The position numbers and the translations under genes are program-made. A stretch of DNA of 64,000 nt, taken from the NCBI GenBank assembly GCA_030583665.1, contig CP129469.1:2533043-2597042 (forward strand). Direction: 5' to 3'. Each line of letters starts with the position of its first letter. The stretch's first letter is position 1. Shown piece after piece: positions 10,330 to 35,079 of the stretch. Under the pieces are notes generated by a model. That model was not told the DNA's origin. It searched no databases and saw only the letters and a program-made list of their open reading frames with translations. This stretch comes from Candidatus Jettenia sp. AMX2 (GTDB taxonomy: Bacteria > Planctomycetota > Brocadiia > Brocadiales > Brocadiaceae).

Positions 10330-10500
10330 ATGCCTGCTACCGTCTGCAAAACCGCTTACATAAAATGAAAATTCCTATACGATAAATTTATCGTTGAATA
10401 ACTACAAACCTTAACCTTTAAGCCTGATAAATAGTTAAATACTTTATTAGGACGCTAAATCCTACAAACAAAACCAAATGATGTCAAGCCAAAGTTTTGC

Positions 10501-17842: not shown

Positions 17843-17921
17843 TGCCTTGGTATAGGTTGCTTCCTGTCAAGGAGTTTATACCAGGTAAAAAACGAACGTG
17901 CTTCCCGCAATAAGGTTCACT

Positions 17922-19349
17922 ATGAATATTCTTATCATTATTACAAATCGTCATAAGAACCCCGTACCGGTTATCCCTATCGGCGCCTGCCTCGTTGCAG
18001 AAGCAGCCAGACATGCCGGCTATCATGTTCAGGTCATTGACCTGATGTTTAAAAAAAACCCTTTACAAGCGCTGGAATCCGAACTAACTAGGGTTAACTG
18101 GGATGTAGTCGGTCTCTCTGTCCGCAACATTGATAATAATGACATGCAAAATCCGGTAACATTTATCAGGGATCTGATACCGATAGTGGAAATTATCCGC
18201 AACAAAACACGGGCGGCTCTTGTTCTTGGGGGTTCAGCAGTTTCTGTAATGCCGGAGGAATTACTTCGTTATACAAAAGCGGATTGGGCGGTACTGGGTG
18301 ACGGGGAAATTGTTTTCCCGCAATTATTGGCAATGCTTTCCCAGAGAGAAATACCTGATAAAGTTTCCGGGATTGCATGGCTGGAAGACGGCATATTCAG
18401 AAAGAACACGGCGTACGTGGAACGTTTTCTGGATGGATATATGGTTCCTGATTTCTATCGATGGATTGATGTCCGTGCATACCTGTCCAGGTTATCTACT
18501 ATTCCTGTCCAGACAAAACTCGGATGTCATTTTAAATGTATCTACTGCACTTACAGAAAGATCGAAGGACACGATTATCGTTTGTGCGATTCCCGGGTCG
18601 TAGTTGATGCTGTCAAATATCTTGCTTCCCAGGGATTCCGTGATATAGAATTCGTTGATAATGTATTTAATTCTCCTTATGATCATGCCGTGGCCATATG
18701 CAAAGGGCTTGCTGAAATCAAATCTGATATTCGTCTCCAAAGCCTGGAACTGAATCCGCTATTTATAGATGACAACCTTCTCACCGTGATGGAGAGAGCC
18801 GGTTTTACCGGTATCGGTATCACCGCAGAAAGTGCGTCTGATGTTGTTCTGGAAGGACTTAACAAGGGTTTTACCTCAAAAAATATTTACCATGCGGCTT
18901 GCACAATACAACGCCACAAATTGCCTTGCCTTTGGATCTTCATGATCGGAGGTCCCCGTGAAACAAAGGAAACGGTTCGGGAAACCCTGCTGTTTGCAGA
19001 ACAATACATACGCCCGGAAGATACTGCTTTTTTTAATACAGGGATACGCATATATCCGGGTACCGAACTTGAACATATTGCACGGAAAGAAGGTGTTCTG
19101 TCAGTCCCTTCAGAAGAAATGCTCGAGCCGGCATTTTACCTGTCTCCGGCCCTTGACCGGGATTGGTTGTCAAATACCATGCGGCATGCCCTGTCAACCC
19201 ATATGAACTTTATTGATTCAGGCTCCCTTGGTTTGTCATTTCTCCCGGCAATCAACCGTCTTGGTTACAGGCTTGGTGTCCGGCCTCCGCTGTGGAGATA
19301 TACACGCTCCATCCGGCGTTTACTCAAATCGTTAGGAATACCAGCATGA
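17922..19349 (+). CDS. B12-binding radical SAM protein
   Basis: A 475-residue enzyme. An N-terminal cobalamin-binding-type Rossmann domain (about 1-145) contains PIGACLVAEAARHAGYHVQVIDLMF and LGGSAVSVMPEELL; it lacks an obvious DxHxxG, so B12 binding is not certain. The radical SAM core follows, with KLGCHFKCIYCTYR giving CxxxCxxC for the [4Fe-4S] cluster, then EFVDNVFN and GITAESASD elements. Class B-like members methylate or rearrange unreactive carbons. The ATG at 17922 has AAGG 7 bases upstream, whereas that at 17898 has none. The stop overlaps the start of the type III PKS gene (ATGA), so the two proteins are translationally coupled and likely act in one pathway. Confidence 0.88.
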   Translation: MNILIIITNRHKNPVPVIPIGACLVAEAARHAGYHVQVIDLMFKKNPLQALESELTRVNWDVVGLSVRNIDNNDMQNPVTFIRDLIPIVEIIRNKTRAALVLGGSAVSVMPEELLRYTKADWAVLGDGEIVFPQLLAMLSQREIPDKVSGIAWLEDGIFRKNTAYVERFLDGYMVPDFYRWIDVRAYLSRLSTIPVQTKLGCHFKCIYCTYRKIEGHDYRLCDSRVVVDAVKYLASQGFRDIEFVDNVFNSPYDHAVAICKGLAEIKSDIRLQSLELNPLFIDDNLLTVMERAGFTGIGITAESASDVVLEGLNKGFTSKNIYHAACTIQRHKLPCLWIFMIGGPRETKETVRETLLFAEQYIRPEDTAFFNTGIRIYPGTELEHIARKEGVLSVPSEEMLEPAFYLSPALDRDWLSNTMRHALSTHMNFIDSGSLGLSFLPAINRLGYRLGVRPPLWRYTRSIRRLLKSLGIPA

Positions 19350-20443
19350 AAAAACCCATCGATAAAACAGGAACCTCGGGGTCGTTAAACGAAGATGTGT
19401 ATATAGCATCTATTGCAATTACTACGCCGCCATACACTGTCGACCAGCCCCGGGCAGAAGCATTTCTGATAAAACATTATGCAAAAAAGCTAAGCCCTGA
19501 AAGACTAGCAATTATGCATAGAATGTTTTCTCATCCGGGCATAGCACGCCGGCACCTTGCAGTTGATGATCTGGAACAGCTTGTTAATGAGCATCCTGAC
19601 GACCGCATAGCTCGCTTTACAAACAGGGCAGTTGATCTCTCTTCCGAAGCAATTAATGATGCCCTGGCACAGGTTGATTTACCGGTTGATGCTATTTCAG
19701 GACTAGTGGTTAATACCTGTACGGGATATATTTGCCCCGGCATATCGACGTATCTTATAGAAAAGTTGGGAATCTCTCATCAGATACAGGCTTATGACCT
19801 GGTTGGCAGCGGTTGCGGAGGGGCAATTCCCAATTTACAAATGTGCAGGAATATGGCTAACAAAACTGCGGCAGGTGTAATAATGAGTGTCTCTGTTGAG
19901 ATATGCAGCGCCACATTTCAAATGGACGATGATTTGAGTCTGATAGTCTCAAATGCAATCTTTGCAGACGGTGCATCGGCAGCCTTGATCTGGCAGCGTC
20001 CTGTGGGATTAGGATTAACCCTTATTGATTCGGTCAGTCGTTTTGACCCCAAATACCGTGATGATATACGCTATATTTATAAGAACGGAAAACTGTATAA
20101 TCAAATCTCTGTTTTGATACCAAAGATAGCCGGTAAGCTGGTTGCCAAAGTAATATCGGATCTGTTTAAACCCAGAGGATTACGGATAGAAGATATAAGA
20201 TACTGGGTTTTTCATCCGGGAGGAACAAAGGTTATTAATGCGATAAGGGATGAGGTTGGGCTCTCTGAAAAACATTTCCAGGCAACACGCAAGATACTGG
20301 CTAACTTCGGTAATATGTCTTCACCAACCGTATGGTTTGTTTTGAAAGAGATACTAAATGAGGGAACTACACCAGGAGATTGGTGTGTCATGGTGTCCTT
20401 TGGTGCCGGCATGTCTGCACATGCGTTCCTTTTGAAAACATAA
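19346..20443 (+). CDS. Type III polyketide synthase (chalcone/stilbene synthase-like)
   Basis: A 365-residue thiolase-fold condensing enzyme. The catalytic triad of the chalcone synthase family can be read: Cys157 in GSGCGGAIPN, His290 in VFHPGGTKVI and Asn323 in FGNMSSPTVWF. The GNMSS block and the VVNTCTGYICPG segment favour type III PKS over FabH. Such enzymes extend an acyl-CoA starter with malonyl-CoA units and cyclise the product into resorcinol, pyrone or phloroglucinol types. The start ATG overlaps the preceding stop by ATGA and has AGGAA 7 bases upstream; the frame open to 19292 is a shadow of the upstream gene. The product cannot be predicted from sequence. Confidence 0.9.
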   Translation: MKKPIDKTGTSGSLNEDVYIASIAITTPPYTVDQPRAEAFLIKHYAKKLSPERLAIMHRMFSHPGIARRHLAVDDLEQLVNEHPDDRIARFTNRAVDLSSEAINDALAQVDLPVDAISGLVVNTCTGYICPGISTYLIEKLGISHQIQAYDLVGSGCGGAIPNLQMCRNMANKTAAGVIMSVSVEICSATFQMDDDLSLIVSNAIFADGASAALIWQRPVGLGLTLIDSVSRFDPKYRDDIRYIYKNGKLYNQISVLIPKIAGKLVAKVISDLFKPRGLRIEDIRYWVFHPGGTKVINAIRDEVGLSEKHFQATRKILANFGNMSSPTVWFVLKEILNEGTTPGDWCVMVSFGAGMSAHAFLLKT

Positions 20444-24639: not shown

Positions 24640-25095
24640 ATGAAAATCAAAAACATCACGGCAATTCTGTTAACGTTCAGCCTGTTACTTGCTCCAATCT
24701 CTGTAGCAAAAGCAGGTGAGGTTCCAACACCAGGCAGTAAACCACTCTCTGAAATCCTTAAAACGGTTGAAGAGATGAACATTGGGGTCATTACGGAGGC
24801 AGAGTTCGACGACGGCATATGGGAGATGAAGGTCTGCGATGCCGGTACCTGCCAGAAACTTTACATTGCTCCGGAATCCGGTAAGGAAACTCGCCGGAGG
24901 AAGACGGAAGCCGGTGAAATACCGCCACCAAGCGCCCTGCCGCTCTCAACGGTCATACGGTCTGTTGAAGCCAGTGTACCGGGAATCATAAAGGAAGTTG
25001 AGTTCGAGGATGGATTTTGGGAAGTCGAGCTTCGCAAGGACGGTCAAAAGATCAAGCTGACTATCGATCCCGGGACCGGAGAGGCGAGGCGTTGA
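24640..25095 (+). CDS. Exported protein with two PepSY-like repeats
   Basis: A 151-residue protein with an N-terminal signal peptide (MKIKNITAILLTFSLLLAPI, cleavage likely after AKA near residue 25). Two repeats of about 60 residues follow, each PLSxxxxxVE...G.I.E.EF.DG.WE, then KL.I.P.(S/T)G: residues 31-85 and 95-150. The pattern resembles the PepSY fold of small periplasmic proteins, where tandem copies often bind and inhibit or sense. The first repeat carries a CDAGTC cysteine pair missing from the second. Shine-Dalgarno AAAGGAAGGA precedes the ATG. 25096-25758 downstream contains no gene that I can support. Confidence 0.65.
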   Translation: MKIKNITAILLTFSLLLAPISVAKAGEVPTPGSKPLSEILKTVEEMNIGVITEAEFDDGIWEMKVCDAGTCQKLYIAPESGKETRRRKTEAGEIPPPSALPLSTVIRSVEASVPGIIKEVEFEDGFWEVELRKDGQKIKLTIDPGTGEARR

Positions 25096-25758: not shown

Positions 25759-28700
25759 ATGAAAAGAAAAAAACAAAGATCAGCGGTTTTGCTGGAAAAG
25801 ATGCTAATCCGGTTTTTTTGTGCTTGCCTTACATTATTTCTTTTTCTGTGGTTCTTCTTTTGTTGCCACGCACCATTGGTGGCCGAGGCGAACAAAGCGG
25901 CCTTGAGCGATCCCTTTTCCGTTGATGGGCTGTATCTTACACGGGACCGCTTGCAGGCAGTATACAATAATGTGCAAGAGCGCCTGGCTGAAGTGTCACA
26001 GGAAAAGGATCGGCTCGTCGCTTTGTATGAACGGCTTCGGATCGATGCGGAAGAACTCGAAGCCGAGTTGGATATCCGCCCCGACACCACAAGTCCTACC
26101 CGTTTCCTGCCGCTCGAGCCTCCATCCAAGCTTGAGCCGGCCGTGGCCATCCCACCCAATATCATCCACACCACCGAATTTTGGAGTCTGGAACAATCCT
26201 ATCAAAATGCAAAGGATGAATCGAAAAGCGCCCGGTCACGTTCGTTTTTCACCCAAACCACTGGACTTCAGGCATGGGGAATGCTTCTTCGGGCCCCGGA
26301 GGCAAGCTATCGCTATGAAATCGCTCTGGCAAAAGCCCGCGCTACGATCATCGCCTACCGGAATTATTTGGAAAAATGGGAATTAGCCAAAACATACCTG
26401 TTCGATGCCATGGAAATCGTACGAAGTTTTCCGGACGATGAAAATAAGGAGATGGCAAGGGAGCGACGGATCCGAATTGAGGACCTTCGGGGAAGATATG
26501 CCACAAAGGAACGCCAAATTGATCTTCGCGATTATGCTGAATGGCAGGATACGGTGCTGACCCTCGAGAGTAAAAGAAACCCGGTAATCGATGAACTGGA
26601 AACAGTGTTCGAAACACTTGCAAAGCATTATCCATGGACATCAACTCAATGGAAGCTGGACGACACGGAAACGCCGTCCGCACCCATCACGCCTGAACGT
26701 CCCCGCCTGATGCTGCCTCGTTTACCATCATCTCCGCCATGGGTTGACCTGGCTCCTCTTGGTCTCCGGCAGATCAACGATACTCTCTACGCTGCCAGGA
26801 AGTTTCGTGCTTTTTTACAAGAGCCTGCCTGGGAGACCTTTGCATCAGAGAGTGTTGACACCAGGCTTTCAGAACTGAATTTCTGGGACGGAGAAATCCC
26901 CCCGGTAACCTTCCGATCCGGATGGTCTGGACCCGAAGGTCTTGTTCCCCGTTTTCGCGGCGAACCGGTAAGGTATCATGCAGCCGTCAGCACACTGCTT
27001 CAGCTGGAAGATTTTAAAGATGTGAGAATATCCATCCTTCATCCCCCCTACGTGGTGTGCGGCGTTGCCTACTATCTGCCTGAACCGGAGGCCGATGAAA
27101 AGATCGAAACAGACACGAGGCGCGCCGAAGGTACACCGGATCTCGCGCAACTTCGGGACCGATCCGAATCTGCGTTTCGCCTGGTGACCGATCGCATCGA
27201 AACACACCAAAGAGAACTCGAAACTTCGTTACAATTGGAACAGCGGCTTCGTGAAACCTATAAAAAATACGGGGAACAAGCCCGGCTTATGCAAAATGAG
27301 CTGCAACAAATACCTGATCTGGCAATTCTCGAGCCATATCCCCCGACCTTCGATCGCAGCCCTTTTGACCTGCATAACATGTCGATGCTCGAACAGCAGC
27401 GTCAGTTGGCTACCGACATGTTTCAAGCGTTAGCCTCTACATTTGATCATTTGCTGAATCCCGGGTTTTCTTCCGATGCTCTCAAACGGGCAGGACGATG
27501 GGCTGAGCGGCACGCTCTCGATTTTCTTTATGCCGCTCCTGTTCTTTTGATCGATGGTCATCTCCTGATGACCCAAAGGCTGCTCGATGTGTTGGATTAC
27601 CGGGATTACCTGGAAAAGTGGAATCTTCACCGCGAGTTTATCGAAAGAGCCCGCGCCCTGCATCTACAACGAGCTTCACGAAACGGAAGATCCGGTCTGA
27701 ATGAACGTGAGCAGCTCCACAATGAGTACGGGGAAAAGGAAAAGCTGCTGCATGCCGCAAGTCGCGATGCCTGGGAAGAGATTGTCACCGCACGCACTGC
27801 GAGCTTGAATGAGTTGTTCAGGCAAGTGGAGCAATTGTTGCAAGGCATACCGCCTAAATCCTGGGATGACCGTCCATGGCTCTACAAACTACCTGTGTCG
27901 AACCTGAACTGGCCGCAAGGCCTGGACTTCAAACGTATAAATGACCGGTTCGATGAGACCCGATCAGACTGGGTCAATCTCACGTCACTTCATTTGTACC
28001 TGTTTTTCAGACATCCTCTGGACTTTGGAGTGTTGAGATCAGAAGCCGAAATTTCGGCACCCGCTCTTCCGACCTTCGAGGAGAGTGAACCCGATCCCGG
28101 TAAAAGCGAGCCTTCCCTTATTCCACCGCCCGCACCACATGAAGTGCCCGGCCACCCGTTTGTCATCATATCTCGTGATACACCCAGGCCGGAGAATCCG
28201 AGGATGGTCGTTCTTCCTAGAACCAGGGATCCTTTCGGGAAATTCTCCGAACATCAGGAGGCCCCGGAAAATGCGCCCTTTGCCGGCATTGGCGTGCATC
28301 TGGCGGATGGTTCCTTTGTACACCGAACCTCAGATCTGACACTTCATTCCCGGGATGATGAGGATTTCGATTTCGAGCGAACCTACCGGAGCAATATCAA
28401 GTACCAAGGAACATTGGGGCCTAATTGGGACTTCAAGTACAATCAGCGCATCGTTGAGGTGGAAGACATTCTCATCCCCATCAAAGACGCGCCATTGACC
28501 TGCGGCCAAGAGTTTCCCCGTGATGACGGAACAGGTCAAGGAAATGATCTCCGGTTCTTTGACGGTAACGGCCGTCTCTTTCTTTATACTTTCAAAAAAG
28601 CCGAGCAGAAAAATATAGTCCTCTGGGGCGTATGGAAAGGAGACGCTCTGGTTTCGACCTATAATTCTCCTGCAGGTCGCTTTGATGAATTGCTCCGAAT

Positions 28701-31700
28701 CGTTATCATGCCCGAAGGAAACCGTGAGTTCTCTACCGACCTCGATAGTTCAATCGTTCCGTCTTGGATCTTCTATGTGCGTCGGGAAAAAGACGGAACC
28801 CGTTATTTTTATAATTGCCATGGCCTTCTCACCCGCATTTTGGATCGGAATATGTTTCGTGAGCTTCAATTCGGATATGACGGACCATACAATCCCCTTA
28901 CACTCACGCAGACCTTGAGTGCCATAAAAATTGTTCATACCGGTATGCTCATCAAATTGGAATATGAGCTGCTTTCTGAAAAAGAACCTCCGCGGCTGAA
29001 AGGGCTGGTCGTCCGAAGCTATCGCGGATTGAAAAAATTCATCGGGTACGCATACGACGAACAGGGGAGATTGCACGAAGTGACGCTTCCGGGAAGTACG
29101 GAACAGAATCCGGTCATGCTCAGGTACCATTACCGTGACGAAAACCTGCTCACCGAAATCACCGCACCACGGGAAGTTGCCCGCAATGGGGTACCCTTCC
29201 TGAAAAATGATTACTCCAGTGGTCGTGTCGTTCTGCAAACGTGGGGAGTGCCTCCTGAAGATGGCGGGACGTATACATTCAAATATGAGGGTCTATCCGT
29301 TGAAGTTAAGGATCCGAGGAAAAACACGACGGTCTATACATTAAAATCGGTAAATGAAAATATCGTTACGGAACGAATCACTGAAATAGGAACTGAGGAA
29401 GGTAAATCATGGACGACGTCATTCGATTACTACCCTTTCCTTCTCTGGCGCCGCATCGAATTCCCAAAGGGTAATGTTTTGGAATATGAAAGGGATAAAG
29501 AGAATGATTTCATTACACTCGATGGTGAACCTTACAACAGATTAAATCAGGGTAATATCCGTTCCATTGCGCGAATCGGTAAAAACGGGAACAAACTCGA
29601 ACAGTTAACTTACACTTATGAGTCATATTTCAATGAAGTGGAAACGGTCACTGACGGACGCCGGTATACGACGACCTACAAATATGAACCAGGCTTCAAA
29701 CGCCCAGAAGCTTACCGGAACGGCCGGGCCGTCAGGGTCATCTATCCAGATTTGACTACCGCCGGGGGCACGGTTCACAAAGATATCCACGAGATCATTG
29801 AATGGACTCCCTTCGGACCTCTCAGGATCACCGATGTTGGAAAACATGAAACCAATTTCATTTACGCAAGCACACCGGAAGGTCTCTTTTCCATCACCCG
29901 GCAGCATCCCGATTTGACAACCCGGACCACAACCTTTGACGAATGGTGGAACGTGCGAACTATCAAAGACGAGCGTAATATTGTGACAAAATTTGAATAT
30001 GACGGACGCGACCGCCCCACCGATCATTATGATGATACTGATGGTTTCAATATCCACACTTCCTATAAATATGACGAAAACGACAATGTTATACGGGTGG
30101 AGCGTGAATGGAAAGATATGTTCGACAGCAGCGCCCATCCCGCGCTTTCACGGCTTCCCCAGCAACCAAAAAAACATATTCGCACTTACGACTATTATGT
30201 CCGGGGTATGCTGAAGTCAGAGACCGTAGAGTTGGATGACACTACGACTCTTACAACCTCCTTTTACTATGACGGCTACGGCAATCTGCGAAGAATCGAA
30301 TCCCCTTTGACCGGCGTCACCCAACGGTTTTTCAACGAGCGCAATCAACTCTCGCGGATCAGCAGTGGCTCCCAATCAGATGTGCTGGTCAGTGAAAAAT
30401 TGGACTATGATGACAACGGTAATTTGGAAAAGCACATCGATGGAAGAAATAGCATCACCACCTACCTTTATGATGAATTTGACCGATTTGAAGGGTTTAT
30501 CGATGCCGCAGGCAATAAAGTCGAACATATATTGGATGATGCCGATAACATCAAGAGGGCAAGAGTCTTGGGCCACCCCGGAGGGCCGACACCTTCTGCG
30601 GACAATAACCCGAAGATCCTCTTAAGCGATGTCGAATTCGAGATTGACGAGCATAATCAGGTGCATACCCGGCATGAACACGTTTTGGAAATCAAAAACG
30701 GAGAGAGCGTCAAGACCGGCACACTGTCTACCCGTTATATATACGACAGGGAGGGGCTACTCGACATCATTGTCGATCCTTACGGTCACAAGACAGATCA
30801 TGATTATGACAAGCGGCGCCGGTTGACGAAGGTCACTGATGCAACCGGAAATTACACCAGGTGGGTTCTCGATAGAAACGGAAATATCGAGGAACTTCAT
30901 GAGCATGAGGCAGCTCAGGAAGGCGCGTCGGAACCCTCCCGGACCTATGTTACCAAGTGGGCATACAACAGCCTGAACGATCAAATCGCCGAAACAGACC
31001 CGCTGAATCGGGCTACCCGCTTCTTCAGGGACAGTCTCGGCAATCTCAGGGCTCAGATCAGAAAGCGTGGAACTGCCAACGGCTTCCCCGCCCTCTATGG
31101 CTGGGATGCATTACACCGGAAAAAAGAGGTGCGGGTCGAATGGGTACGCGATGAAAAAGAGGGCGAGGGACGGAGACCACGGTGGAACGATCTGGTAACC
31201 ATATATAATTATGATTTGACAAACGGCACCCTTTTACTCACCGTCGCGGAAAAACTGGAGGATTGGCAAAACGGCGGTAATGATGACGATTTTTTCCGCA
31301 CAACCGAGCTTCATCACGATGCATTGGGACGGCTCATCAAGACTGTTCGCCCTGACGGAACGATCTTTGAAGTCATGGAGTACTACCCCGACGGTCATCC
31401 TTTGCGCACAAAAGACGCCAATGAGACAAAAGTCACCAACACATACGATGTCCTCAACCGCCTGGTCAAGCGCACGATCGAACCGGGTGAGGGCATCGAA
31501 GGCGTTACGGTGGAACACTATGAATATGACGGGCTGGGACGAATAACCGCGGCCGGCGGTGACGGGTACGCGGATTTCAGCTACGACTCCCTTGGGCGCG
31601 TATTGAGCGAACAGCAGGCATTGCGGGCCAGAGTTGACGAGGAAGATGATGGACGGCTCAAACCAACGGTTGTCCTCCATGCCGGAAGGACGATCACACC

Positions 31701-34095
31701 CCGGGAACCGAAAGTGGTCACAACGACATACAAAGATACCGCCCCCATGACGGTAACACACACCTATCCTGCCGATCGGTTTCAAGTTGAGAAAGAGTAC
31801 GACCCTTTGGAACGGGTACGTTCAATTGTCCTCCGTTCCAATGGTGAGGAACGGGACCGTATAGATTACCGTTACATCGGGAAAACCCGCGTAAGCACAC
31901 GGGCTTATAACAACAACACAAAAACCCGCTATTTTTATTCCGATGATCGCCTTTTAAAGAGCGTCGCCCACTTCAGCCCCCAGGGAAGAAAGCTCCCCCG
32001 CGGACTGGAACCGCCCTTGAGCCCCGAAGAAATGAAAGTTGTCTGGGATGCTGTCCGCGATCTTCCGCGAGGCGAAGATCCTATATTTTCAACGAGTGAA
32101 CCGCTTCTTGCCGCCTATTTTGCACTTCGCGACGAGGAAGGGAATGTTTTCCTTCAGGATCACATCCATCCTCTACCCCAAACCAGACCCGGTACGGATC
32201 ATTGGCACGGGGAAAGAAGAATTTTCGGGTATGACAGTTTAAATCAGCTTCAAATCCAGAAACATTTCATCTCCCTGTATCGAAGAGAAATGGCCGGAGG
32301 CTCGCCTCTTTCGGAAACATCGGCCCAATACCATCAATACCTTCCAACGGGAGCTCGAATGATCACCGAGAGTGTCGAACATTACGATCCCCCGGCGGGT
32401 TTGGGAGGAAACGTGAAGCGCCGTGAACTCACCATCGCTCGCACGCCTGTCGGTAAGGATGTCCGGTACGACCCGATCAGGGTGGATCGGATAGACAGTC
32501 TGACGGATATGATTCCACCGACAGAAGAGCGGTTTTCCGAATCGTTCGGCTACAAATTCGACAAAGCAGGAAACCTGACTAGCGATACATTGAACAACAT
32601 CGAGTATCGTTACGATTACCGGGGAAGGCTGGTGTCGGTGAACTACACTGATGACGGCACAAGTGTACACTACCGGTATGATCCATTCGACCGTCTGATA
32701 TTACGGGACATCGAACTCAGACCCGGAAGTAAGCCTAGAACAATCCGGACATGGCTTATTTACAGCGGTGAGACCTGCATCGAGGAGTTTCCATTTGACG
32801 GCGATGCGGCACCTCTCGGAAAGGGCCGGACCCGATATGTCTGGGGCGGCGACCCCGACGAGCTTGTATGGATAAGTCGTGTGCGGGACGTTTCGGCAGA
32901 TACTGAACCAATAGAGGGAAACTATTTTGTTCATGAAGATTTGAATGGCTCATGGCAGTTTTTCACAACTCCCCGGTCGATAGAAAAGGCCGGTATGATT
33001 GAAATTCGGGATTGGCGGTGGAAAAGGCAGGCCCCAAGCATCGGAAGCCATACGATCCTGCCGCTGCCGGTTGTCGGCACCCGCTATGAGGCCTATTTCG
33101 AAGGGAATCTTCTTGGGGGCCGCCCTCTGTTCGATTTCGAAAAGCCCGTCAACTTCTCATCTCGGCACATGGAGCAGTTCAGGGCGGAACTCACTCGTAG
33201 AAGGTGGGAAATGGATTCGTGGGTACTGACCAGGATACTCGCTCCCTTCGGAGGACCCTTATCTGCAGGAATTGAAGGGCTGGGGTGGGCTGCCAGGCTG
33301 GGATTGATAGCAACGGGGAATATATCCCCGGAGTGGGATGACAGGCTTGAAAAAGCGCTTTTTATTGCTGATGTATCTGCCGGCATCGGTTCTCTGGCTT
33401 TTGCTATTGCACGCCCCGATAAATGGACGCGTATGGCTGCCTCAGTTGGAGGAAGCCCTGAAAAATGGCTCAGAACTCGATGGATGCGGAGCCTTGTCTA
33501 TCAGCGTGTGCTGGACCGGAGTATCGAACTGCGCCGGTTTGTAGCGACCGGGTTCCCGGGCCGTGCCGGAGGACATATTACCTTTGGCACTGCAGGTCGC
33601 ATCGGGAAGGAAGGTGTTCAGCGGTATGTCTCGGTGAATGTTGGGATCAGAGGTATTCCGTGGTGGGAATATGCCGAGCGGGGTATCGTCAGGAAAAATG
33701 AAATCCTCGTACTTACCCTGGGTCGTGCTGCGGGCGGGGGATCGGTGCATGCCGAGGCATCGCTGTTACGGCACCTTGTCCATGAAGGCGGATACCTCGT
33801 AGTCGGAGCTAGCCGGCATATCTGTCCCGAATGTGCCGCCCGATTATTTCAACATAATATACAAAGCGCCGTTCCGTTCCGGCTACTCGGAACAGATCCT
33901 AATCCCAGGATGCTCAAATCAGGTAAAATAAGGTATTCAGGAATGGTGCGTTTTCTGCACGTTTTGACCGGTGCCGATGAGGCAGCGATTAGCGGACTGG
34001 GACGAGCTGGACTGGAAGACTTGCGAAATTATTTCTTTCCTAAATATCCGCGCAGAGCCGGCCCCGGGTTCGGTAAACCCTTTCCAGGCAGATAG
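25759..34095 (+). CDS. Giant RHS/YD-repeat protein with C-terminal deaminase-like toxin domain
   Basis: 2778 residues. A hydrophobic N-terminus (about 18-42) suggests export or anchoring. Residues 45-790 form a charged, coiled-coil-rich region made of two divergent copies of one module (YRNYLEKWEL at 200, YRDYLEKWNL at 614). From about 840 an RHS opening (GSFVHRTSDLTLHSR...FERTYRS) leads into many YD repeats up to about 2310, which in RHS proteins build a hollow shell around the toxin. After a hydrophobic linker (2500-2550), the tail has HAE (2664-2666) and CPEC (2689-2692), the zinc motif of the cytidine-deaminase fold used by nucleic-acid deaminase toxins. No PAAR, VgrG or immunity gene is adjacent. 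Base composition is visibly richer in G+C than neighbours, suggesting acquisition. Confidence 0.87.
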   Translation: MKRKKQRSAVLLEKMLIRFFCACLTLFLFLWFFFCCHAPLVAEANKAALSDPFSVDGLYLTRDRLQAVYNNVQERLAEVSQEKDRLVALYERLRIDAEELEAELDIRPDTTSPTRFLPLEPPSKLEPAVAIPPNIIHTTEFWSLEQSYQNAKDESKSARSRSFFTQTTGLQAWGMLLRAPEASYRYEIALAKARATIIAYRNYLEKWELAKTYLFDAMEIVRSFPDDENKEMARERRIRIEDLRGRYATKERQIDLRDYAEWQDTVLTLESKRNPVIDELETVFETLAKHYPWTSTQWKLDDTETPSAPITPERPRLMLPRLPSSPPWVDLAPLGLRQINDTLYAARKFRAFLQEPAWETFASESVDTRLSELNFWDGEIPPVTFRSGWSGPEGLVPRFRGEPVRYHAAVSTLLQLEDFKDVRISILHPPYVVCGVAYYLPEPEADEKIETDTRRAEGTPDLAQLRDRSESAFRLVTDRIETHQRELETSLQLEQRLRETYKKYGEQARLMQNELQQIPDLAILEPYPPTFDRSPFDLHNMSMLEQQRQLATDMFQALASTFDHLLNPGFSSDALKRAGRWAERHALDFLYAAPVLLIDGHLLMTQRLLDVLDYRDYLEKWNLHREFIERARALHLQRASRNGRSGLNEREQLHNEYGEKEKLLHAASRDAWEEIVTARTASLNELFRQVEQLLQGIPPKSWDDRPWLYKLPVSNLNWPQGLDFKRINDRFDETRSDWVNLTSLHLYLFFRHPLDFGVLRSEAEISAPALPTFEESEPDPGKSEPSLIPPPAPHEVPGHPFVIISRDTPRPENPRMVVLPRTRDPFGKFSEHQEAPENAPFAGIGVHLADGSFVHRTSDLTLHSRDDEDFDFERTYRSNIKYQGTLGPNWDFKYNQRIVEVEDILIPIKDAPLTCGQEFPRDDGTGQGNDLRFFDGNGRLFLYTFKKAEQKNIVLWGVWKGDALVSTYNSPAGRFDELLRIVIMPEGNREFSTDLDSSIVPSWIFYVRREKDGTRYFYNCHGLLTRILDRNMFRELQFGYDGPYNPLTLTQTLSAIKIVHTGMLIKLEYELLSEKEPPRLKGLVVRSYRGLKKFIGYAYDEQGRLHEVTLPGSTEQNPVMLRYHYRDENLLTEITAPREVARNGVPFLKNDYSSGRVVLQTWGVPPEDGGTYTFKYEGLSVEVKDPRKNTTVYTLKSVNENIVTERITEIGTEEGKSWTTSFDYYPFLLWRRIEFPKGNVLEYERDKENDFITLDGEPYNRLNQGNIRSIARIGKNGNKLEQLTYTYESYFNEVETVTDGRRYTTTYKYEPGFKRPEAYRNGRAVRVIYPDLTTAGGTVHKDIHEIIEWTPFGPLRITDVGKHETNFIYASTPEGLFSITRQHPDLTTRTTTFDEWWNVRTIKDERNIVTKFEYDGRDRPTDHYDDTDGFNIHTSYKYDENDNVIRVEREWKDMFDSSAHPALSRLPQQPKKHIRTYDYYVRGMLKSETVELDDTTTLTTSFYYDGYGNLRRIESPLTGVTQRFFNERNQLSRISSGSQSDVLVSEKLDYDDNGNLEKHIDGRNSITTYLYDEFDRFEGFIDAAGNKVEHILDDADNIKRARVLGHPGGPTPSADNNPKILLSDVEFEIDEHNQVHTRHEHVLEIKNGESVKTGTLSTRYIYDREGLLDIIVDPYGHKTDHDYDKRRRLTKVTDATGNYTRWVLDRNGNIEELHEHEAAQEGASEPSRTYVTKWAYNSLNDQIAETDPLNRATRFFRDSLGNLRAQIRKRGTANGFPALYGWDALHRKKEVRVEWVRDEKEGEGRRPRWNDLVTIYNYDLTNGTLLLTVAEKLEDWQNGGNDDDFFRTTELHHDALGRLIKTVRPDGTIFEVMEYYPDGHPLRTKDANETKVTNTYDVLNRLVKRTIEPGEGIEGVTVEHYEYDGLGRITAAGGDGYADFSYDSLGRVLSEQQALRARVDEEDDGRLKPTVVLHAGRTITPREPKVVTTTYKDTAPMTVTHTYPADRFQVEKEYDPLERVRSIVLRSNGEERDRIDYRYIGKTRVSTRAYNNNTKTRYFYSDDRLLKSVAHFSPQGRKLPRGLEPPLSPEEMKVVWDAVRDLPRGEDPIFSTSEPLLAAYFALRDEEGNVFLQDHIHPLPQTRPGTDHWHGERRIFGYDSLNQLQIQKHFISLYRREMAGGSPLSETSAQYHQYLPTGARMITESVEHYDPPAGLGGNVKRRELTIARTPVGKDVRYDPIRVDRIDSLTDMIPPTEERFSESFGYKFDKAGNLTSDTLNNIEYRYDYRGRLVSVNYTDDGTSVHYRYDPFDRLILRDIELRPGSKPRTIRTWLIYSGETCIEEFPFDGDAAPLGKGRTRYVWGGDPDELVWISRVRDVSADTEPIEGNYFVHEDLNGSWQFFTTPRSIEKAGMIEIRDWRWKRQAPSIGSHTILPLPVVGTRYEAYFEGNLLGGRPLFDFEKPVNFSSRHMEQFRAELTRRRWEMDSWVLTRILAPFGGPLSAGIEGLGWAARLGLIATGNISPEWDDRLEKALFIADVSAGIGSLAFAIARPDKWTRMAASVGGSPEKWLRTRWMRSLVYQRVLDRSIELRRFVATGFPGRAGGHITFGTAGRIGKEGVQRYVSVNVGIRGIPWWEYAERGIVRKNEILVLTLGRAAGGGSVHAEASLLRHLVHEGGYLVVGASRHICPECAARLFQHNIQSAVPFRLLGTDPNPRMLKSGKIRYSGMVRFLHVLTGADEAAISGLGRAGLEDLRNYFFPKYPRRAGPGFGKPFPGR

Positions 34096-34395
34096 TTCCC
34101 GAACGGAGTAGAAGTAAAATCAACGCTTACAAGTATACTTCTGTGAAGGAGATTAAAAGGTATAGATTTAATGTCACATTTGGTATACTCACCAAGGGTG
34201 TTGAAGCTTTTATTGGTGCAAGGGACGCACCCTACTACTACGTTCAGGTTTTAACACCACGAAGATGAAGATTACGAAGAATAATTTATAAAACAAATCT
34301 TTTGATTTTGTTTATTTTAATATTTTTTCCCAAATATTCATATACATCATAACATATAAGGGTGGACTCTACTCACCAAAAAAGACTATTTCTGT

Positions 34396-34465
34396 CATTG
34401 CAAGAAGCGAAGCGACGAAGTAATCTCTGCCTTTGGGATTGCTTCGGAAAAGACCCTCGCAATGA
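34396..34465. repeat. CATTGCAAG...GAAGTAATC repeat copy
   Basis: GTCATTGCAAGAAGCGAAG followed by GATTGCTTCGGAAAAGACC and CTCGCAATGACC, a copy of the family at 20520-20695. A TGGCAGACAGTGCCTGCC copy of the GGCAGG family follows at 34482-34505. Apart from these, 34096-34640 shows only a 27-codon frame at 34169, too short and compositionally poor to be called. Confidence 0.7.
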
Positions 34466-34640
34466 CCGGTGGAACAGGTAATTGGCAGACAGTGCCTGCC
34501 TTACATAAAAAAACATGTTTTAAACGAAGAACGCAAAGCTAACGAAGAGAAAGATTAGAAACCGAATCTATAAAATCCTGTCCTTTTTCGTGTCCTTCAT
34601 AAACTTCGTACTACAATCCATCAACTTCATGTTTTTTGTG

Positions 34641-34940
34641 CTCGTTTTTCAAAATGCATAAGCTTGATAAATTCCCCTCCCTCGATGGGAGGGGTTAGGG
34701 GAGGGTGGGTCAATCAATCAATGCTTTTCTTATGACTTCCCATACTCCCTGGGTATTCTTCAAAACTTCATTATCGGTGGGTCGTTTTCTGAGAATTTTT
34801 GCTCTATGCCGTAGTTCTTATTCACCCTCATCTGGCCTCCCCCATCAAGCCTGCCTGTGCGTCACCGCACGCAGACAGGGGGGAGGAAATTTTAGTATTT
34901 CTAATTTGGTTGCGTCCAAAGGCCGCGCCAGGACCTTCGT
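34641..34940. repeat. Long inverted repeat, arm A (partner 50813-51075)
   Basis: Reads as the reverse complement of 50813-51075 through several landmarks: CTCCCTCGATGGGAGGGG, CAATGCTTTTCTTATGACTT, CCTGGGTATTCTTC, CGGTGGGTCGTTTTCTGAG, GGGGAGGAAATTTTAGTATT and GGCCGCGCCA. An extra 30 bases (a CCTGCCTGTGCG/CGCAGACAGG hairpin, near 34850-34880) are unique to this arm. Its outer end (34641-34672) matches 52729-52762 instead. Confidence 0.8.
34710..34817 (-). pseudogene. Relic of a DUF559-type endonuclease gene, copy A
   Basis: Minus-strand codons read ELRHRAKILRKRPTD followed by NEVLKNTQGVWEVIRKALID. The first part resembles the N-terminus of DUF559 (Vsr-like) proteins and the second their C-terminal tail, so the catalytic core is missing. 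A stop codon directly precedes the relic and no start is available. The identification rests on remembered family sequence. Confidence 0.4.
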
Positions 34941-35079
34941 GGTTAAATCTTTTTGGTTGTGGTTACGCCACGCTAGGCGCTTCGTGGTAAAAACTATTAG
35001 AAGAACCGGGAAGATATTACATCAATCATTAATATCCGGCAGACCGGTATATCACCATAAAACTTGCTATGCTGCCGCT

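Follow-up and report, generated by a model that had tools for sequence, protein, structure and literature searches.

RHS proteins that carry deaminases as C-terminal tips are already known, and polymorphic RHS toxins have been described that are exported by signal peptides and independently of a T6SS (PMC3482391). The Rhs effectors of the T6SS, for example Photorhabdus Rhs1, are built in three parts, an N-terminal part, a YD shell and a C-terminal toxin, and classical Rhs proteins cut off the toxin at a boundary motif, PxxxxDPxGL (PMC8636562). The gene examined for the current report, ~8.3 kb long and located in the genome of an anammox bacterium, encodes an RHS protein of 2778 aa that has the three-part layout in common with the T6SS effectors and shares a signal-like start, YD repeats and a variable C-terminal tip with the signal-peptide-exported toxins. 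It differs from the former in having no PAAR domain, no T6SS sheath gene in its genome and no PxxxxDPxGL boundary, and from the latter in its N-terminal duplicated region of no known family, its lack of a DPxGL boundary and a tip that has no adjoining immunity gene. Further RHS proteins from this anammox family (L033, L034, L036 and L037) also have signal-like starts and YD repeats, but they keep a classical core end with DPxG, which is missing from the host protein and from the single homologue described below. We regard the protein as a likely exported polymorphic RHS toxin with an exchangeable tip that would attack nucleic acids and that is predicted from its sequence to be, in this instance, a deaminase.

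The gene extends over positions 25759..34095 of the window (the whole stretch of 64,000 nucleotides that was analysed) as one uninterrupted ORF on the + strand, which is also the strand of all its features given below; AAAAGGAGAATCAGG stands 5' of the ATG. The host genome consists of one 3.46-Mb contig, and its assignment to an anammox bacterium in the initial annotation was confirmed by a profile search, since it contains hydrazine synthase alpha (PF18582, 3.5e-27). The latter gene occurs at two places (L062 and L063; G000:C1:383159 and 1143185), where 2586 bases that include it are 100% identical, so that the second copy must be recent or have been kept identical. The reported absence of PAAR and VgrG also held, in that Pfam detected neither domain in the 2778 aa protein; furthermore, no T6SS sheath gene (VipA) was detected in the single-contig genome by a search for which the E. 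coli control was positive.

The carrier portion of the protein begins with a signal-like N-terminus (residues 1-44; 25759..25890), as had been noticed at the outset. A K/R-rich start is followed by residues 16-34, which exceed every other 19-residue stretch of the whole protein in hydrophobicity (KD mean 2.31), and this layout, which is the same in the homologue, resembles a Sec signal or signal anchor. Residues 45-845 (25891..28293) belong to no known family and are internally duplicated, with units at residues 62-287 and 466-697 that match each other at E 2e-6 and 44.3 bits in a self-comparison, as compared with at most 27.7 bits in 200 shuffles. Among 392 genomes of the phylum this duplicated region of ~800 residues was found only in the host genome (G000) and in genome G020, and neither plasmids nor viral contigs contained a match to it; PHROGs, NCBIfam and PADLOC returned nothing for it or for the tip of either protein. 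It is followed by DUF6531 (residues 846-902; 28294..28464; Pfam 2.3e-8) and by the RHS/YD repeat region (residues ~903-2314; 28465..32700), which was recognized by NCBIfam YD_repeat_2x (1.2e-17) and by Pfam RHS_repeat (3.1e-27; 94.8 bits in 10 stretches, with a cut-off of 22) and which bears out the original description of a giant RHS protein with YD repeats. By analogy with solved RHS proteins, these repeats are expected to form a shell. A conserved junction (residues ~2441-2572; 33079..33473) that includes a hydrophobic stretch at residues 2533-2551 precedes the tip. It has no DPxG, and the PxxxxDPxGL motif is absent from the shell/toxin boundary, the only DPxG sequences of the protein being at residues 824 and 1673.

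The gene was found in two of the 33 genomes of the family, namely the host and G020, which represents another genus; it is missing from G001, the other genome of the host genus that was examined. A whole-protein search identified the G020 protein as the one full-length homologue among the 33 genomes, aligned over residues 1-2576. The two carriers are 73% identical in protein sequence, and the DNA identity of 77% begins at the ATG and extends exactly to position 33473 (residue ~2572), where the similarity stops; beyond this point the tails of the two proteins are unrelated, and on neither side of the gene do the flanks have anything in common. Purifying selection acts on the carrier (dN/dS 0.18 for the host and G020), and its most constrained part is formed by the 140 codons immediately preceding the break (dN/dS 0.07, with synonymous sites near saturation). 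Polymorphic toxins are defined by unrelated tips on a conserved carrier, and by this pattern we assign the gene to them and the difference between the tips to exchange; the evidence is clear but not deep, because it comes from one pair of genomes. The earlier view of the tail as toxin-like finds its strongest evidence in the replacement of this tail in the homologue. A profile of the junction matched nothing in GTDB contigs and, apart from the host/G020 pair, only generic RHS repeats in genomes of the phylum. No remnants of the G020 tip or of the ORF next to it were seen near the host gene, nor any of the host tip near the G020 gene.

How the two genomes came to share the gene was approached through neighbouring genes as yardsticks. 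An RND pump was dropped for this purpose because it had no ortholog in relatives. A COX1/NnrS-like gene showed 74-75% DNA identity, and the 77% of the RHS gene is thus no sign of recent transfer; the gene may have been transferred long ago, or it may be an old inheritance that other lineages have lost. A 64-base stretch upstream of a small ORF in the window (10353-10415) is 78% identical to one (L039:9251-9313) that precedes the RHS start codon of G020 by 110-170 bases, and it is perhaps a shared repeat or a promoter region.

The tip of the G020 protein (L022:9253-9918) resembles a PIN nuclease. It matches the Pfam PIN profile at E 1.6e-4 to 2.1e-4, the better value corresponding to 22.7 bits, about one bit under the curated cut-off of 23.6, and it presents acidic residues in the order expected for PIN (D2642, E2676, D2722 and D2740). 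The occurrence of the same carrier with a PIN-like tip in a related genus suggests that the carrier serves as a general-purpose vehicle, with its tip replaced by recombination near residue 2572. According to a survey from 2012, PIN domains are apparently not used in polymorphic toxins (PMC3482391), and no later paper that reports such tips was found in the part of the literature that was searched; the G020 protein would add PIN domains to the known tips. An ORF of 132 aa (L022:9929-10327) begins 10 bases after the tip gene, is preceded by a ribosome-binding-like site and is a candidate for the immunity gene of this tip. It matches no family and has no homologue in the host genome or in any other of the 392 genomes. 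A second RHS gene of G020 (L038:5806-8897) appears to be split into several shorter frames.

Neither the ORF list nor the sequence of the stretch downstream of the host gene (34096..35079) revealed a credible gene, for immunity or otherwise. Dispersed repeats occur there at 34607-34661 and 34889-34954, and several G001 contigs carry copies of each at 85-96% identity. A PepSY protein encoded upstream of the RHS gene (24640-25095) was considered as an immunity protein, and no evidence for this role was found. The missing immunity gene fits with a target other than sister cells, with immunity encoded elsewhere or with loss. The first of these might mean that the toxin is aimed at eukaryotes, such as grazing protists or other predators of biofilms, rather than at rival bacteria; no immunity gene would then be needed, because the target is eukaryotic. 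Host-directed deaminase toxins without immunity genes have been described for Wolbachia, and divergent deaminase toxins for Orientia and Rickettsia (PMC3482391), and the profile nearest to the host tip, OTT_1508, also points in this direction. We nevertheless consider a eukaryotic target unlikely, since the sister gene of G020, with its PIN-like tip, has an adjoining small ORF of the kind seen in bacterial competition systems.

The exchanged tip of the host protein comprises residues ~2573-2778 (33474..34092), as delimited by the end of the DNA similarity, and contains a deaminase-like core at residues 2596-2738. The HAE (residues 2664-2666; 33748..33756) and CPEC (residues 2689-2692; 33823..33834) sequences, with 22 residues between them, are where the initial annotation had located them, and each occurs once in the 2778 aa protein. 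Suitably spaced HxE and CxxC sequences are the motifs of the deaminase superfamily, and those of the tip would represent the first and second of them, respectively. When the 219-residue tail was shuffled 200,000 times, the chance frequency of an HAE...CxxC pattern (15-40 apart) was 3.5e-5, and the 42,696 residues read from open segments in all six frames of the window contain H[ACPV]E...CxxC (15-32 apart) only here. In the deaminase fold the metal is bound by the H and the two C residues, and the E serves as a catalytic proton shuttle. Of the single metal site once proposed for H2664, E2666, C2689 and C2692, the histidine and both cysteines can therefore be retained as predicted ligands on general grounds, and the glutamate cannot.

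Among the 24,736 families of Pfam, the tip core matched just two, both of them deaminases and both below threshold: OTT_1508_deam (PF14441; E 0.0036, 17.7 bits against a cut-off of 27, with 43 of 64 positions covered) and dCMP_cyt_deam_1 (E 0.17, 12.2 bits against a cut-off of 25). With longer queries the E-value of the deaminase match was 0.0075 (219-residue tail) and 0.13 (whole protein), and no deaminase profile of Pfam passed its curated cut-off on the tip. When the core was shuffled with HAE and CPEC kept in place, none of 10 sequences matched a deaminase. The families that had been suggested for comparison (YwqJ, SCP1.201/DddA, BURPS668_1122 and MafB19) did not match the tail up to E = 10, OTT_1508 being the nearest. 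Searches of 59 relatives, 392 phylum genomes, plasmids, phages, GTDB contigs and viral contigs disclosed no real relative of the tip; weak matches in the phylum were rejected as relatives, as they were without HAE/CxxC. Seven plasmid matches at noise level (E 7-9) include two copies of an Aeromonas nucleoside deaminase, which can be aligned over 78 residues so that its HAE and CPMC stand opposite the HAE and CPEC of the tip, an alignment that none of 300 shuffles equalled and that was picked from noise-level results. PF14441 itself yielded one sub-threshold fragment in 294 genomes of the phylum, and a PDB sequence search with the tip found no deaminase. A custom profile made from TadA, RibD and eight nucleoside deaminases gave only 1.7 bits for the tip core. 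Among 5000 plain shuffles 16 scored at least as high, and so did 283 among 5000 in which the motifs were kept; the profile is a poor test, because TadA has its second motif split in the underlying alignment. Single-sequence AlphaFold2 models of the tail in two lengths, for which there were no relatives to align, were of unusable confidence (pLDDT 36 and 42), and a PDB fold search on such a low-confidence model was meaningless. In the second model (pLDDT 42), the order strand, HAE helix, strand, CPEC helix, strand is that of a deaminase, at low confidence.

The sub-threshold scores, the failure of the structure prediction and the weak score on the profile of metabolic deaminases might also mean that the exchangeable toxin tip is another fast-evolving domain, in which HAE and CPEC have arisen by coincidence or hold a stabilizing zinc. 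This seems rather improbable to us, given that the only two matched families are deaminases, that motif-keeping shuffles match none and that the HAE/CPEC pair is rare by chance. The proposal that the tail has a deaminase fold thus stands on its motifs, its sub-threshold Pfam matches and the order of elements in the weak model, and falls short in that no profile exceeds its cut-off; we judge such a fold to be likely. The tip shares HxE...CxxC with the OTT_1508-like deaminases, which provide its best, if sub-threshold, profile match and which include the OLD proteins of fungi (PMC12754623). Adenosine in RNA is possible as a substrate, because the fungal proteins are A-to-I editors of mRNA (PMC12754623).

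It is highly improbable that the gene encodes a structural protein of the surface or cell envelope (for adhesion, an S-layer or the paryphoplasm) with a binding or metabolic tail and no toxin, as its signal-like start, very large size and lack of a linked immunity gene might suggest, since polymorphic toxins show just this pattern of a whole tail replaced at a fixed point, here by a nuclease-like alternative and after the most conserved segment of the carrier, and since the gene occurs in just two of the 33 genomes of the family.

As an exported polymorphic toxin, the RHS protein would cross the inner membrane by means of its N-terminal signal, presumably through Sec, and its duplicated N-terminal domain would probably anchor or present it. 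The YD repeats might then make a hollow shell that encloses the C-terminal tip, as RHS biology suggests, and the tip could be delivered on contact and attack a target cell. In the host, the tip would probably be a zinc-dependent deaminase, modifying bases of RNA or DNA, and in the related genus a PIN-like nuclease.

Toxin-based competition is hardly described for anammox bacteria, and no paper on it was found in the open literature that was searched. We would give about even chances to the broader proposal that these bacteria possess a distinct class of exported RHS toxins, characterized by a duplicated N-terminal domain and a boundary without DPxGL and swapping PIN tips with deaminase tips of an undescribed family. 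A carrier that swaps PIN-like and deaminase-like tips would add a class of RHS vehicles that do without the usual cleavage motif, and the host tip, if active, would offer for study a new base-changing enzyme, a deaminase without close sequence relatives. Elsewhere, a B12-binding radical SAM gene and a chalcone/type III polyketide synthase-like gene overlap each other (17898-20443 of the window) and are possibly a small biosynthetic pair.
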